From a virus: a stretch of DNA of 20,328 bases. Shown piece by piece: positions 293 through 20,328 of the stretch (its first letter is position 1; every line of letters starts with the position of its first letter). A model generated the notes under the pieces. It had not been told where the DNA came from. It saw only the letters and a program-made list of their open reading frames with translations, and made no database searches. The stretch spans positions 1-20,328 of IMG/VR virus record IMGVR_UViG_3300010151_000270, one strand, 5' to 3'. A program made the translations under genes and the position numbers.

Positions 293-913
293 CTATAGGA
301 CTTTCTCTTCGCCACTTACCATTGCCTCCTTTCTCGTTTCGTATAGCTTGGTAGCTACCGTTATAGCCTCGGCTACTGGATCCTCATACGCCAAAACCAT
401 TGCCTTTTCAATCGTCATCAAATCAATCGTATCCAATACAATCTTGATATGTTCGGGCTTCTTGTAACCAATCCGCAGATGTGATAGTATTGCCCGCCTT
501 ACGGCGAAGCTCATCGCCTTCTCTTCTTCCATAACTTTAGGCCAGTTACGTATCAGTTGCTCGCTGTTGGCTGCTTCGCCGTGAGCCTTGCGCTCTGCCT
601 GCTGTGCCGCTTGACGCTGCTTGCGCTCATGCTCTTGGCGGGGGGTCATCTGCCGTGCCATTTGTAACAACTGCCCCGGCTTGGGCCGCCACTCGCTGTT
701 ACTGAGTAGCCAGTTGTCGATGGCGTTCATCCAAGCGTCATCCGAAAGCCAGCCCAAGATGCGATACCACTGCCGCAACTGCGACGCATCGGGCTTCCAG
801 TTATACTCGCTCATAATAACTTTAATGCCCGCCTTGAAAGCGTCTTGACTTAGTAAAGAGCTTTTACCGGAAGTCGAGGTCATCAATGAAGGCACCTGCA
901 TCGCTTGCGTCAT
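293..913 (-). CDS. Putative replication protein, possibly a helicase loader
   Basis: This 206-residue protein has an aromatic, helical N-terminal part (about residues 25-85, with QLRQWYRILGWLSDDAWMNA and then EWRPKPGQLLQMA). That pattern recalls the N-terminal domain of phage helicase loaders such as G39P-like or DnaT-like proteins, where a W/L-rich helix pair is followed by a proline turn. A charged linker rich in Q, R and E (about 86-120) separates it from a second helical region. The ATG at 913 is supported by AAAGGAGA about 7 bases upstream. The start lies 50 bases inside the end of the preceding methyltransferase-fusion gene, so translation is probably coupled. The neighbouring SSB-like, RusA-like and replication-protein-like genes support a role in DNA replication. 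The family assignment is inference from pattern and context; a generic phage protein of unknown function is the alternative. Confidence 0.5.
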   Translation of the reverse strand: MTQAMQVPSLMTSTSGKSSLLSQDAFKAGIKVIMSEYNWKPDASQLRQWYRILGWLSDDAWMNAIDNWLLSNSEWRPKPGQLLQMARQMTPRQEHERKQRQAAQQAERKAHGEAANSEQLIRNWPKVMEEEKAMSFAVRRAILSHLRIGYKKPEHIKIVLDTIDLMTIEKAMVLAYEDPVAEAITVATKLYETRKEAMVSGEEKVL

Positions 914-2261
914 CGGTTATCTCTCCTTTCATTTGACCCTGCATGATCTCGTAACATTTCTTTTCGGGATACGCTTTTGACGGTTGTCGAAATTTAGTTG
1001 GGGATTGCATGAATCGCGGCACCCACGACTTGAGAGCAAAATCACTGATCTCCCTAATCTCACCCCACTCCAATTTGTCGATGCGGTGGAGGTCATCAAA
1101 CACTTTACACCACGCCATTTTGTATTTCGCCTTATAATCCAATTCGGGATGTTTTTTCCACTGGATGTGGAGCATATCAGCTTCGATAGAAGGCGAATAC
1201 GACTTGCGGTATTGCGCCATGTAGTGCTTGTGGCAGTAGCCGCCTCGGTCTGCCGCATCATCGCAATCCCGCTTCTTGCAATGAGTAACCGATCCGTTTT
1301 GAGTAACAGCAGCGGGTTCACTACGACTAGTTGTAGGTTCTAAGTTAGTTGTACTAGTATCTTGGTCTAGGGTACCTTGGTCTAGGGTACCTTGGTCTAC
1401 GGTACTGGTACTAGAGTCCTCCTCCTGTAACCTTGCCTCGACAATCGGTAACAATACTATCTCCTTGTTACTGACTTTATTACCATCCTCGTCTTCATTA
1501 GTAACAATTCTGGTGTCGATGTTGACCTCTATGATTATTTTCATATGATTGCTTTCCTCTCGCTCCTTTATGAGTTGTGCTATGGTAGCTGTAATGTGTG
1601 GGATGCAGCTATTGCCTAATCCTCTAAGTCGGTCCACCCTATTGGAAACCCCATCAGATATTCGGATAGGTGGGGGTTCAGCTTCCCACCCGCCAAGTAA
1701 GCCATGTCGTATAGTGTTTGCCCCAATACGATCTTCGACCCCTCCTTGCGGGTTGCTGTTATATTCCGGCCCTGCGATACGGTTGGGGTAGGATATGATC
1801 CACGTACGTGAGCGTGTGTGCGGGGCACCAACGTCTGCACCCGATATAATATTCCATTCTGAACTATACCCGATCTCGGCCAAAGACCCGCATAATCGGT
1901 CGAGTCCTCCATTGACGAGTCGGGATACGTTTTCCACGACAACGTATCGTGGTCGAAGCTCGCTAACGACTCGTAACATTTCCCACCATAAACCGGAGTT
2001 TTTTCCATCTAACCCTTGTCCTTTCGCATTTGCCATTGACAAATCTTGACATGGGAACCCGCCAACTATAACATCAACAGGCTGCAATGTAGTGCTATCC
2101 ACTTCGCGGATGTCATTGTAACGGGGAACATCGGGCCAATGCTTTGCCAGCACCGCTCGGCAATACGGGTCAAGTTCGACTTGCCATGCGATGTCAAATC
2201 CCGCAACGGTAAAGCCCAAATCAAAGCCACCAATCCCCGAAAACAATGACCCTACTCGCAT
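864..2261 (-). CDS. C5-cytosine DNA methyltransferase fused in frame to a replication-protein-like C-terminal domain
   Basis: Residues 1-239 are a compact cytosine-5 DNA methyltransferase. Visible motifs are the AdoMet loop (LFSGIGGFD, 6-14), the catalytic PCQ (Cys71), ENV (110-112), the R-x-R motif (HTRSR, 148-152) and the C-terminal GLGN motif (214-217). Only about 60 residues separate R-x-R from GLGN, so a normal target-recognition domain is nearly absent. The frame then continues without a stop into a 226-residue second part beginning MKIIIEV. This has a T/S/D/Q-rich repetitive linker, a zinc finger of form C-x4-C-x9-C-x2-H (HCKKRDC...GGYCHKH), and a C-terminal helical region (WCKVFDDLHRID...FMQSPTKFRQP) that resembles the end of phage replication initiators and replisome organisers. 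The start at 2261 overlaps the end of the RusA gene by 10 bases. The C-terminal part may also be made alone from an internal ATG at 1544. The methylation target is unknown. Confidence 0.85.
   Translation of the reverse strand: MRVGSLFSGIGGFDLGFTVAGFDIAWQVELDPYCRAVLAKHWPDVPRYNDIREVDSTTLQPVDVIVGGFPCQDLSMANAKGQGLDGKNSGLWWEMLRVVSELRPRYVVVENVSRLVNGGLDRLCGSLAEIGYSSEWNIISGADVGAPHTRSRTWIISYPNRIAGPEYNSNPQGGVEDRIGANTIRHGLLGGWEAEPPPIRISDGVSNRVDRLRGLGNSCIPHITATIAQLIKEREESNHMKIIIEVNIDTRIVTNEDEDGNKVSNKEIVLLPIVEARLQEEDSSTSTVDQGTLDQGTLDQDTSTTNLEPTTSRSEPAAVTQNGSVTHCKKRDCDDAADRGGYCHKHYMAQYRKSYSPSIEADMLHIQWKKHPELDYKAKYKMAWCKVFDDLHRIDKLEWGEIREISDFALKSWVPRFMQSPTKFRQPSKAYPEKKCYEIMQGQMKGEITDDASDAGAFIDDLDFR
1361..1405. 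repeat. 15-bp tandem repeat, three units, in the fusion linker
   Basis: Three adjacent 15-bp units read cttggtctagggtac, the third with one change (cttggtctacggtac). On the coding (minus) strand they encode the repeats VDQGT-LDQGT-LDQDT of the linker between the methyltransferase and the zinc-finger domain. The unit length is a multiple of three, so copy number can change without breaking the frame. The flanks are rich in CTAG and GTAC words. Confidence 0.9.
1542..1570 (-). promoter_or_regulatory. Candidate internal ribosome-binding site and start (ATG at 1544)
   Basis: An in-frame ATG at 1544 is preceded on the minus strand by GAGGAA about 9 bases upstream (and AAGGAG further up). It sits exactly where the methyltransferase domain ends. 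Initiation here would give a 226-residue free form of the zinc-finger and replication-protein-like domain. This is a prediction from spacing only. Confidence 0.4.
1616..2008 (-). CDS. Overlapping-frame protein of a phage methyltransferase-associated family, nested inside the methyltransferase gene
   Basis: This 130-residue reading frame lies wholly inside the methyltransferase gene, on the same strand but shifted by one base. Its product is not random: it contains ESLASFDHDTLSWKTY, then GLWPRSGIVQNGILY, TLVPRTHAHVRGSYPTPT and ends NPHLSEYLMGFPIGWTDLED. From memory, these are hallmarks of a phage protein family usually annotated as a DNA cytosine methyltransferase or its C-terminal part (PRSGM..NG..Y, LWPTPT, LMGFPIGWTDLE). 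The final GWTDLED-stop is read from the same bases that encode RVDRLRGLGN in the methyltransferase frame, and both are conserved-looking motifs. A start at 2008 is preceded by AAAGGACAAGGG, a fair ribosome-binding site. I infer that both frames are translated. A role as separate target-recognition or accessory subunit is possible but unproven. The alternative is a relic of an ancient frameshift. Confidence 0.6.
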   Translation of the reverse strand: MEKTPVYGGKCYESLASFDHDTLSWKTYPDSSMEDSTDYAGLWPRSGIVQNGILYRVQTLVPRTHAHVRGSYPTPTVSQGRNITATRKEGSKIVLGQTLYDMAYLAGGKLNPHLSEYLMGFPIGWTDLED

Positions 2262-5873: not shown

Positions 5874-7097
5874 ATGAGCAAGCCCGCATGTATTTTTCAG
5901 AATTGCCACAGCGAGAGCATAAGCAAGGGGCTATGCAGTAAGCATAAACAAGCCCGCTGGAACGCAGAGCAAAAAGGGAAGGCATGGCCCCTAAACGCCG
6001 ATGGCACCTATAACCCTTCCCTTTGTCCCTCCCTTGCAATAGAAGCGCAAGCCCCCGCCCCCGCCCCCGCTCCCGCTCCCGCTCCCGCCCCCGTTGCCCC
6101 CGCCCCCGTTGCCCCCGTTGACAACAGCGCGGCGAAAAGTAAAGCGGAGATGCTGGAAGAGCTTTTGTCTGGTGGAAAAGATGAGCGAGTCGATGAGCTT
6201 ATTACTCGTATTTCTACGCTGGAAAATTCTATTAGTGCCCACTATAGAATTGATATAGACCACGGCAAGGGCAAGGTGGTTAAAGTTGAGGGGTTGAATC
6301 ACCGTGTAACACCGTATGTTATCGACCTTGTAGCTGCCGATAAAATGCCATACTTGGTAGGTCCCGCTGGCAGTGGGAAAACTACGTTAGCGGAAAAAGT
6401 AGCTGCTGCATTAGATCTCGATTTTTACTCTACAGGTGCAGTGGTTCAGAAGTATGAATTGACCGGATTTGTAGATGCCACTGGCACCTATCAAGAAAGC
6501 TCTTTTTATAAAGCATATAAATACGGCGGGCTATTCTTATTCGATGAGCTTGACGCCAGTTCGCCCGCTGCTATTGTAGCATTTAACGCTGCTCTCGAAA
6601 ATGGCCACTGGGCTTGCCCATCTGGTGAGATGGTAATACGCCACAAGGATTTTCGCGTTATCGCCAGTGCAAATACCTATGGTAAGGGAGCTACTTTGTC
6701 TTATGTAGGTCGTAACCCCCTTGATGGAAGCACGATTGATAGGTTCGCCTTTGTAATTATGAATTACGATTTCGCTCTTACTGCTGCTATCAAGGGTGTT
6801 GCATACGATGGCAAACAAGCCCCCCTACGCTACACTGTTAAAGAAAACAGCGAGCACGATATAAGTAGCTATTTTCGAGACGTTACATTGTATGCGGATG
6901 CAGTGGACGCTATGGGCATAAAGCACATCATAAGCCCCCGCGCTGCTATCAATGGTGTTGATATGTTACGCCGCAACGTCAAGCGTTCAGTGGTTGAGGA
7001 AAGCTTTATCTGGAAAGGTCTGGACGCGGATAGCGTAAAGAAAATTAGACAGCATGCAGCCGATGCACTGGCGAAGTTAGATAGGGAGGAAAATTAA
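5874..7097 (+). CDS. AAA+ ATPase (MoxR/dynein-like AAA_5 type) with N-terminal zinc finger
   Basis: A 407-residue protein. Residues 6-24 form a C-x4-C-x9-C-x2-H zinc finger (C6, C11, C21, H24) of the same spacing as in the methyltransferase-fusion protein. A proline-alanine stalk (about 60-82) and a helical, coiled-coil-like stretch (about 90-122) follow. The ATPase core has Walker A GPAGSGKTT (163-171), Walker B GGLFLFDELD (about 217-226) and a sensor-like IASANT (about 262-267), then STIDRFAF with an arginine-finger-like residue. This is the layout of MoxR-type AAA ATPases, which remodel proteins together with a partner. The start has AAGGAG upstream. The gene is one base from its neighbour, which probably encodes that partner. 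Target unknown. Confidence 0.85.
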   Translation: MSKPACIFQNCHSESISKGLCSKHKQARWNAEQKGKAWPLNADGTYNPSLCPSLAIEAQAPAPAPAPAPAPAPVAPAPVAPVDNSAAKSKAEMLEELLSGGKDERVDELITRISTLENSISAHYRIDIDHGKGKVVKVEGLNHRVTPYVIDLVAADKMPYLVGPAGSGKTTLAEKVAAALDLDFYSTGAVVQKYELTGFVDATGTYQESSFYKAYKYGGLFLFDELDASSPAAIVAFNAALENGHWACPSGEMVIRHKDFRVIASANTYGKGATLSYVGRNPLDGSTIDRFAFVIMNYDFALTAAIKGVAYDGKQAPLRYTVKENSEHDISSYFRDVTLYADAVDAMGIKHIISPRAAINGVDMLRRNVKRSVVEESFIWKGLDADSVKKIRQHAADALAKLDREEN

Positions 7098-7098
7098 G

Positions 7099-7986
7099 AT
7101 GGTACGACTGGAAAAGAAAAATGCAACAGAGACCATGAAAGGACTTGGGCAAAGGGGCAAGGATACGGGCAAGGGAGAGAATATTTACACAACAAAAGCT
7201 ACTGTTGGAGAGATGATAGAATTTATTAAGCAAGCCCCCCGCATAGATGGAGCGGGCAAATCATCTACCGAAGATGAGTCTACTAAGGACTGGGACGATA
7301 ACGCTGGTTACAAGGGATCAATAGAGCTTGCCGAAAAAGGATGGCCCACTGGCGTTAAGCAGATGAAAAAATTCGAAGTAGAGGCGGGGGAAAACTTCGA
7401 TACCTTGCCCGCTTTTTCTTACGATATTGCGGGAGCTTTCCCCTCCGTTCCCGCTTACTGCGCTGGTGATCCAGAGCATATGGCATTGCCTGTTGATTTG
7501 CCCAACAAGCCCATTTGTAGGATGGTAGTAGAAATCGGTAAGGTATGGCATTTAAAGGCCGCTACTTCTATGCGGTATGGTGTGGCCATCTTGGGGGCCG
7601 TCAATAGCTTGATAACGGCGGGTGTTACAGTAGTGCTTGACGCGAACTGGTCTGGGGCTTTCGATTTCGACCGGAAAGACTACACACAGTGGCTTATACC
7701 GCTGGGCGGAGGCGGGCAAGTTATGGACCTTGATAGGCTCGCTTATTGCCTTGCACATCCAGCACTGTTGCGGCGCATCGGCTTTGCTTATTTGGAGCGC
7801 GTCAAAGAGCTTGCCCCAACTACTAAAAATGGCTACTTGCTAAACTATGGCGGGGGGCTTTTTGATACATCTGAATACGATGTGCATTTCCCCCGTATTG
7901 CCAATGATAAGGATTGCAAGGATGCAGCAGTAGCCCGCCAGTTAGTCGAGGGTATCCTAAGCAAAGCGGGCTATGGCAATGAATAA
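7099..7986 (+). CDS. Partner protein of the AAA ATPase, unknown function (phage DUF7192-like)
   Basis: A 295-residue protein with GGAGG about 9 bases before its ATG, directly after the ATPase. The segment GYKGSIELAEKGWPTGVKQM (about 74-93) and the later MRYGVAILGAVNSLITAGVTVVLDANW (about 159-185) recall phage proteins of the group I remember as DUF7192. MoxR ATPases are often paired with von Willebrand A-domain proteins. The beta-alpha alternation in the middle could be a degenerate version of such a domain, but I see no clear MIDAS (D-x-S-x-S) motif. The basic first 30 residues are probably flexible. It may form a two-component remodelling system with the ATPase. The family name is from memory and needs a search. 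Confidence 0.65.
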   Translation: MVRLEKKNATETMKGLGQRGKDTGKGENIYTTKATVGEMIEFIKQAPRIDGAGKSSTEDESTKDWDDNAGYKGSIELAEKGWPTGVKQMKKFEVEAGENFDTLPAFSYDIAGAFPSVPAYCAGDPEHMALPVDLPNKPICRMVVEIGKVWHLKAATSMRYGVAILGAVNSLITAGVTVVLDANWSGAFDFDRKDYTQWLIPLGGGGQVMDLDRLAYCLAHPALLRRIGFAYLERVKELAPTTKNGYLLNYGGGLFDTSEYDVHFPRIANDKDCKDAAVARQLVEGILSKAGYGNE

Positions 7987-19855: not shown

Positions 19856-20328
19856 ATGGCAAACGGATCATTTGATTACAAAAAAGACCCTCGCTTTAGA
19901 AAAATACAAGAAGGGGCAAAATACGGTCAATACGATGCAGATGCACTTTCAAAGGCATTGTCGGGCATCGGGCCAAGCGTGCCGGGGGGCTACGATATTC
20001 ACCATGCTGGGGCACTTATTGCCGATAGTGGCTTTAACCCCAATGCGTCTTTTGCCGACTACACTAAGGGCCTTGCTGGGGCTATGGGGGATGATCCGAA
20101 TGCAAGGAACCCCGGCTTCGGTGGTATGTCTTTTAATGAGTTTCAGAGCCTGTTTCCAACGCAAGCGGTGGACTTTACCCGCAGCGATGCTTTTAAGAAT
20201 ATTAGTGTTCCGAAGACAACGACAACATCAACTGCGGCAAACCCGGCTGCCGTTGCGGCCCCCGATGCTCAACCCCAGCCTCAACCTCAACCCCAGCCTC
20301 AACCTCAACCCCAGCCTCAACCTCAACC
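19856..20328 (+). CDS. Virion protein with PQ repeats, partial at right edge
   Basis: An open frame from an ATG at 19856 (GGAG upstream) to the window end, at least 157 residues. It begins MANGSFDYKKDPRFRKIQEG and has a glycine-rich, moderately polar middle (GFGGMSFNEFQSLFPTQAV). A T/A-rich linker and a PQPQPQ tract coded by an 18-bp tandem repeat follow at the edge. This resembles internal virion or ejection proteins, or fibre-adapter proteins with flexible hinges. I cannot tell which, since the C-terminus is missing. Confidence 0.6.
   Translation, partial: MANGSFDYKKDPRFRKIQEGAKYGQYDADALSKALSGIGPSVPGGYDIHHAGALIADSGFNPNASFADYTKGLAGAMGDDPNARNPGFGGMSFNEFQSLFPTQAVDFTRSDAFKNISVPKTTTTSTAANPAAVAAPDAQPQPQPQPQPQPQPQPQPQ
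20270..20328. repeat. 18-bp tandem repeat encoding PQPQPQ, cut by the window end
   Basis: Units of caaccccagcctcaacct begin at 20270, 20288 and 20306, and a fourth starts at 20324. In frame they encode a proline-glutamine tract of at least 19 residues. Confidence 0.9.

Follow-up and report, generated by a model that had tools for sequence, protein, structure and literature searches.

A phage C5-cytosine DNA methyltransferase probably encoded as two chains in overlapping reading frames

Single-chain C5-cytosine DNA methyltransferases, such as M.HhaI and M.HaeIII, carry their target-recognition domain (TRD) and motifs IX and X in one frame. Two described enzymes of this class are naturally divided into two subunits: M.EcoHK31I, the alpha/beta methyltransferase of E. 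coli, with target YGGCCR; and M.AquI, with target CYCGRG. The small gene of M.EcoHK31I reportedly is nested within the large one, in a different frame. The larger M.EcoHK31I polypeptide carries motifs I-VIII and X and the smaller only motif IX, and its recognition domain has been placed on the larger of the two (PMC3404938). In M.AquI, motifs IX and X both lie on the small subunit (PMC3404938).

The stretch of DNA analysed here (the window; 20,328 nucleotides) is a 20-kb phage record with genes for terminase, major capsid protein, RusA, and endolysin. Inspection of its open reading frames and translations supports the preliminary description, which placed two overlapping coding frames on one strand: both lie on the minus strand, and the second (beta) is shifted by one base relative to the first (alpha; Table 1). 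As in M.EcoHK31I, the large chain of the window locus carries motifs I-VIII and X and the small chain motif IX (for the window, from a weak, position-specific match), and the small-chain gene lies, out of frame, inside the large-chain gene. There are two differences. The window locus is phage-borne, and no restriction enzyme was recognised among the window genes examined. Moreover, the recognition domain of M.EcoHK31I has been assigned to the large chain, whereas the variable region of the window alpha chain, between motifs VIII and X, comprises only about 48 residues and is predicted to be disordered. Likened by layout rather than by sequence comparison, the window locus is classed as a phage member of the M.EcoHK31I kind; given the present anatomy, a recognition domain on the large chain is doubtful for this methyltransferase family. 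With M.AquI the locus shares the natural split into two subunits, but it keeps motif X on alpha and motif IX alone on beta, and so departs from the M.AquI layout.

The evidence points to one model: the two frames very probably encode a single C5-cytosine DNA methyltransferase, made as two polypeptides and active as an alpha-beta heterodimer with the anatomy of M.EcoHK31I.

Table 1. Positions of the alpha and beta chains, their elements, and related features (window numbering, except for the four semi-split loci, which are numbered within their own records)
Feature	Position	Strand	Basis or remark
Open reading frame containing alpha	complement(864..2261)	minus	agrees with the preliminary description
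Alpha, C5-cytosine methyltransferase chain, 238 aa	1548..2261	minus	PF00145; alignment of 38 homologues; AlphaFold2/Foldseek
Alpha linker, aa 162-209, motif VIII to motif X, without folded TRD	1635..1778	minus	pLDDT
Alpha motif X, RVDRLRGLGN	1611..1640	minus	sequence; AlphaFold helices aa 209-215 and 221-237
Beta, 130-aa second chain inside alpha, +1 frame relative to alpha	1616..2008	minus	PHROG 1008; 40 homologues; selection in beta frame
Beta putative motif IX, LNPHLSEYLMGFPIGW (family form LNPxxxEyLMGFPIGW)	1634..1681	minus	local profile-profile match
Candidate ribosome-binding site for beta, AAAGGA	2019..2024	minus	10 nt before beta ATG
Downstream gene (MKIIIEV...)	864..1544	minus	same frame as alpha, no stop between; own Shine-Dalgarno sequence (AAAGGAG) and ATG
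Semi-split form, locus L254	1200-2585
Semi-split form, locus L286	1215-2078
Semi-split form, locus L287	1209-2072
Semi-split form, locus L198	1700-2900

Anatomy of the alpha and beta chains

Alpha contains motifs I (FSGIGG), IV (PCQ, residues 70-72), VI (ENV, residues 110-112), VIII (RSR, residues 150-152), and X (RLRGLGN). In the homologue alignment the corresponding C5 columns, namely I, IV (PCQ), VI (ENV), VIII (RxR), and X (GN), are invariant. Alpha matches PHROG 363 ("DNA methyltransferase") at 8e-69 and PF00145 at 1.5e-41. The latter match, however, pairs alpha residues 1-160 with profile positions 1-163 of 324 only, the portion that holds motifs I-VIII, and motif IX was not found on alpha, where the PF00145 match stops. 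Likewise, solved C5 methyltransferases align with alpha only through about motif VIII. In the AlphaFold2 model, pLDDT exceeds 90 across most of residues 1-160; the motif X helices also are of high confidence; and residues 162-209 (residue 194 excepted) fall below 50 and are predicted to be disordered. The predicted fold is that of the M.HhaI large domain (best Foldseek match M.HhaI, 9.7e-17), and so resembles the large domain of the single-chain enzymes. The segment predicted to be disordered in alpha is where those enzymes have their recognition domain and motif IX, so we infer that beta brings both.

Beta matches PHROG 1008 (again "DNA methyltransferase") at 2.5e-16, as do all 40 of its aligned homologues. 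PHROGs 363 and 1008 are separate families, whose shared DNA is unmentioned. Family and model searches of Pfam, NCBIfam, and PADLOC returned no beta model. The chain includes the sequences WPRSGIVQNG and YPTPT together with the putative motif IX, LNPHLSEYLMGFPIGW / LNPHLSEYLMGFPIGWTDLED. Its end shares DNA with alpha motif X: the bases for GWTDLED-stop of beta (1639..1616) are, as first noticed, common to those for RVDRLRGLGN of alpha (1640..1611). When beta was compared with 15 single-chain C5 methyltransferases from bacterial genomes, the best local profile-profile match was to their motif IX; the match is weak (E 0.037), and aligns R.LT.RE.ARLQGFPD.f (RkLTPREwARLQGFPDifk) with gkLNP..vEwLMGFPIGWt of beta. 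By this weak but position-specific match, at the site that alpha lacks, LMGFPIGW of beta is identified as C5 motif IX. Global profile alignment of beta to the single-chain enzymes failed, and comparison was meaningful only as the local motif IX match. A PDB sequence search with the beta profile yielded repeat or unrelated matches only. The AlphaFold model of beta alone is poor (pLDDT 56), as might be expected of a subunit; this nevertheless weakens the case for a recognition domain on beta, as does the published placement of the M.EcoHK31I recognition domain on the large chain.

Because the motif IX match of beta falls on the motif that alpha lacks, the two frames appear to encode parts of a single enzyme that complement each other: motifs I-VIII and X lie on alpha, IX on beta. 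The preliminary description had spoken of two recognisable protein families. Both frames indeed match PHROGs, but they are better regarded as two pieces of one enzyme, and beta is without a Pfam family. RVDRLRGLGN, which had been assigned broadly to the C-terminal half of the methyltransferase, does belong to alpha; more precisely, RLRGLGN is motif X, and LMGFPIGW corresponds to motif IX. A separate beta subunit fits both the missing motif IX and the apparently disordered linker of alpha.

In the proposed mechanism, alpha would contribute motifs I-VIII, as the large domain for SAM binding and catalysis, together with the helix of motif X at its C terminus. Beta would be translated from an ATG of its own, near codon 85 of the alpha gene, and would supply motif IX and, most likely, to judge from the alpha model, the DNA-recognition (small) domain as well. 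Both chains would be made from one mRNA and would assemble as an active heterodimer, whose site-specific methylation of phage DNA would probably counter restriction by the host. (Anti-restriction is the usual role of phage methyltransferases.)

Related loci with other layouts bear upon this mechanism. Fused homologues, sought because the second family might occur joined to the first elsewhere, do exist. Bacterial locus L198 encodes a single chain in the order I-VIII, WPTPT/LNP.LMGFPIGW, X; in the Gordonia phages Rabbitrun, Trax, and Gudmit, too, one chain runs I-VIII-IX-X, with motif IX read in the alpha frame. All four still retain, nested in the +1 frame, an ORF for the beta amino-terminal module. 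Loci L254, L286, and L287, together with L198, combine motifs IX and X in the alpha frame with a nested +1 beta amino-terminal module, a semi-split form intermediate between the fused and split layouts. Between Rabbitrun and Trax, four-fold degenerate sites differ at 7/66 positions inside the nested ORF, versus 9/44 before and 11/36 after it. Because the Gordonia phages and L198 keep the module with motif IX in the alpha frame, these few sequences hint that the module does more than carry motif IX.

Rabbitrun, Trax, Gudmit, and L198 lend some weight to a different idea, that beta is an overprinted protein of separate function (for example, a regulator, an inhibitor, or an anti-restriction factor) and is not a catalytic subunit. 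This is improbable, since alpha would otherwise have neither motif IX nor a folded recognition region, and since M.EcoHK31I requires both proteins, according to the title of Lee et al. 1995 as cited in PMC3404938.

Beta initiation and selection in two frames

In the window, a beta-frame TAG immediately precedes the beta ATG, and the AAAGGA sequence lies 10 nt upstream; hence, beta probably has its own start. The AAAGGA sits within codons for the conserved AGKGxGL stretch of alpha. Of the 70 loci where an ATG occupies this position, 41 have a core Shine-Dalgarno sequence, versus 31.4 +- 3.4 expected from synonymous shuffles, a modest enrichment. These features also argue against +1 ribosomal frameshifting from alpha, which would produce a single alpha-beta fusion (I-VIII plus IX) in place of two subunits. 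Such frameshifting would account for the constant +1 phase, and the fusion would have the near-canonical order I-VIII, TRD, IX. Yet the TAG directly before the ATG, the Shine-Dalgarno sequence, and conservation, in the beta frame, of the beta amino-terminal part that would be missing from the fusion together render it highly improbable.

Where the window encodes beta, the +1 frame contains no stops, against 5.6 expected on average, and none of 300 synonymous shuffles of the alpha codons left it open; the open frame is therefore not due to chance. Substitution patterns were evaluated with disjoint homologue pairs, which are not phylogenetically independent in the strict sense, but the effect sizes are large enough that the conclusion should stand. 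Outside the overlap, divergence at alpha codon positions 1/2/3 is 0.16/0.11/0.46, like that of an ordinary gene. Inside, the values are 0.22/0.11/0.32 for the part encoding motifs V-VIII and 0.28/0.09/0.12 for that encoding motifs IX/X. Alpha diverges at 53% of its four-fold degenerate sites outside the overlap and at 29% of those within it (Wilcoxon 4e-11 over 62 pairs, of which 56 show this direction); when the window is compared with L002, the counts are 20/29 outside and 9/50 inside (p 9e-6).

Purifying selection in the second frame, proposed at the outset as a check, is evident from beta identity relative to that imposed by alpha: 0.63 versus 0.49 in the V-VIII part of the overlap (about 20 s.d. 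over the alpha-constrained null), 0.38 versus 0.27 in a second part, and 0.82 versus 0.49 at motif IX. The non-overlapping control exhibits no excess (0.493 versus 0.492). Conversely, alpha identity is greater than beta alone would impose. In single-chain methyltransferases, the corresponding +1 frame contains 2-15 stops (15 genes), and there is no four-fold dip at the corresponding codons (4 pairs). Since codon-position and four-fold shifts accompany mutual excess identity, and single-chain enzymes show neither effect, dual coding of alpha and beta is as firmly shown as sequence data allow.

There is next to no likelihood that the +1 frame is open and conserved only because the alpha protein and codon bias force it, with beta untranslated: similarity in overlapping frames can be imposed, and the Shine-Dalgarno enrichment is modest, but at the sequence level this explanation is already refuted by the excess beta identity and its flat control, by the suppression at four-fold sites in the overlap, and by the absence of these effects in single-chain enzymes.

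Distribution and annotation of the nested pair

The first scan of viral sequences was seeded with MGFPIGWT of beta, so that the invariance of this motif in the beta alignment is partly ascertained. The alpha and beta genes overlap in 80/80 of the viral contigs found through beta, always with beta in the +1 frame. Across 81 beta-selected loci there are zero stops in the beta frame, versus about 300 expected, a count that also is partly ascertained. A second viral set was therefore chosen by alpha patterns only (motif I and LAxxGY) to remove the beta-seed bias. Nested beta, in identical +1 phase, is present in 80/80 of these loci, and is uninterrupted in 78/80. Interruption of the second frame beside an intact methyltransferase, which the preliminary description had named as evidence against dual coding, thus is rare (loci L117 and L146).

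The plain nested form also accounts for 64/80 bacterial loci; 13 more show the nesting with either an extended variable stretch or a cut alpha, and three have other frame arrangements. Judged from record titles, many of which denote metagenome bins, these loci span at least ten phyla: Pseudomonadota, Chloroflexota, Myxococcota, Planctomycetota, Bacillota, Desulfobacterota, Synergistota, Bacteroidota, Actinomycetota, Calditrichota, and others. Dual coding here is not the uncommon event first supposed: the alpha/beta pair occurs widely, and M.EcoHK31I, which has this arrangement, was described decades ago. A literature search, of incomplete coverage, found no published report of this overlap in phages. 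New here are the breadth of the distribution, the lack of any record annotating both genes of an intact pair, the lack of a Pfam or NCBIfam beta model, and the Gordonia phage variants.

It is quite possible, if somewhat short of probable, that, in phages and in at least ten bacterial phyla, a whole branch of C5 methyltransferases has obligatory dual coding of a +1 protein over motifs V-VIII, a protein with a role beyond supplying motif IX. If so, few long same-strand gene overlaps in prokaryotes and phages would be as widespread, and the annotation of one gene per locus would have half concealed this one. For research on overlapping genes, the family offers a large natural collection of pairs whose products likely share a function, and it allows comparison among split, fused, and semi-split forms.

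Annotated phage and plasmid records illustrate the problem. Both frames are carried in 22/22 such records, and both genes of an intact pair are annotated in 0/22: only alpha is annotated in 18, only beta in three (SOVA965, Rctr197k, and Mwe-JY08), and in Llama the two annotated genes are halves of a frameshifted alpha. One gene of each intact pair thus is missing from annotation in the 22 records checked. As a consequence, phage methylome studies that rely on single-gene annotation, cloning and expression of a lone methyltransferase gene, and screens for defence or counter-defence would work with only half of the enzyme, which they may score as inactive.

Some copies are probably broken. In Mycobacterium phage Llama (L247, 1501-2260), an indel in mid-gene throws alpha and beta alike out of frame, and the locus is annotated as two "DNA methyltransferase" genes. 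The same two-piece pattern is seen in the mycophages Jinglebell, Seabastian, OfUltron, Ochi17, and AlpineSix. To judge from the shifted frames, the methyltransferase probably is broken in Llama and in these phages. The E. coli PCP07014 chromosome contains a prophage relative (L298, 3001-3762) that RefSeq flags as a pseudogene with an internal stop. (DNA-level relatives of the Salmonella phage S9-5 copy occur in only 4/5426 E. coli genomes.)

Surroundings of the window locus

The gene downstream of alpha encodes a zinc-ribbon-like sequence, HCKKRDCDDAADRGGYCHKHY, and has no family match. Its stop-less junction with alpha (about 1544) is found also in L001 and in the 69%-identical L002; because it recurs, the junction may yield both a fusion and a free protein. 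Between the halves of the downstream ORF (window about 1360-1410, minus strand) lies a short repeat, DQGTL (GGTACCTTGGTCTAG units), of which the near relative L001 has fewer copies.

Elsewhere in the window, a gene for a CobS-like AAA ATPase (PHROG 249) is followed by a PHROG 1909 gene of unknown function (5874-7986). The record ends within a PQPQPQ-encoding repeat (20240-20328), and this repeat may have stopped the assembly.
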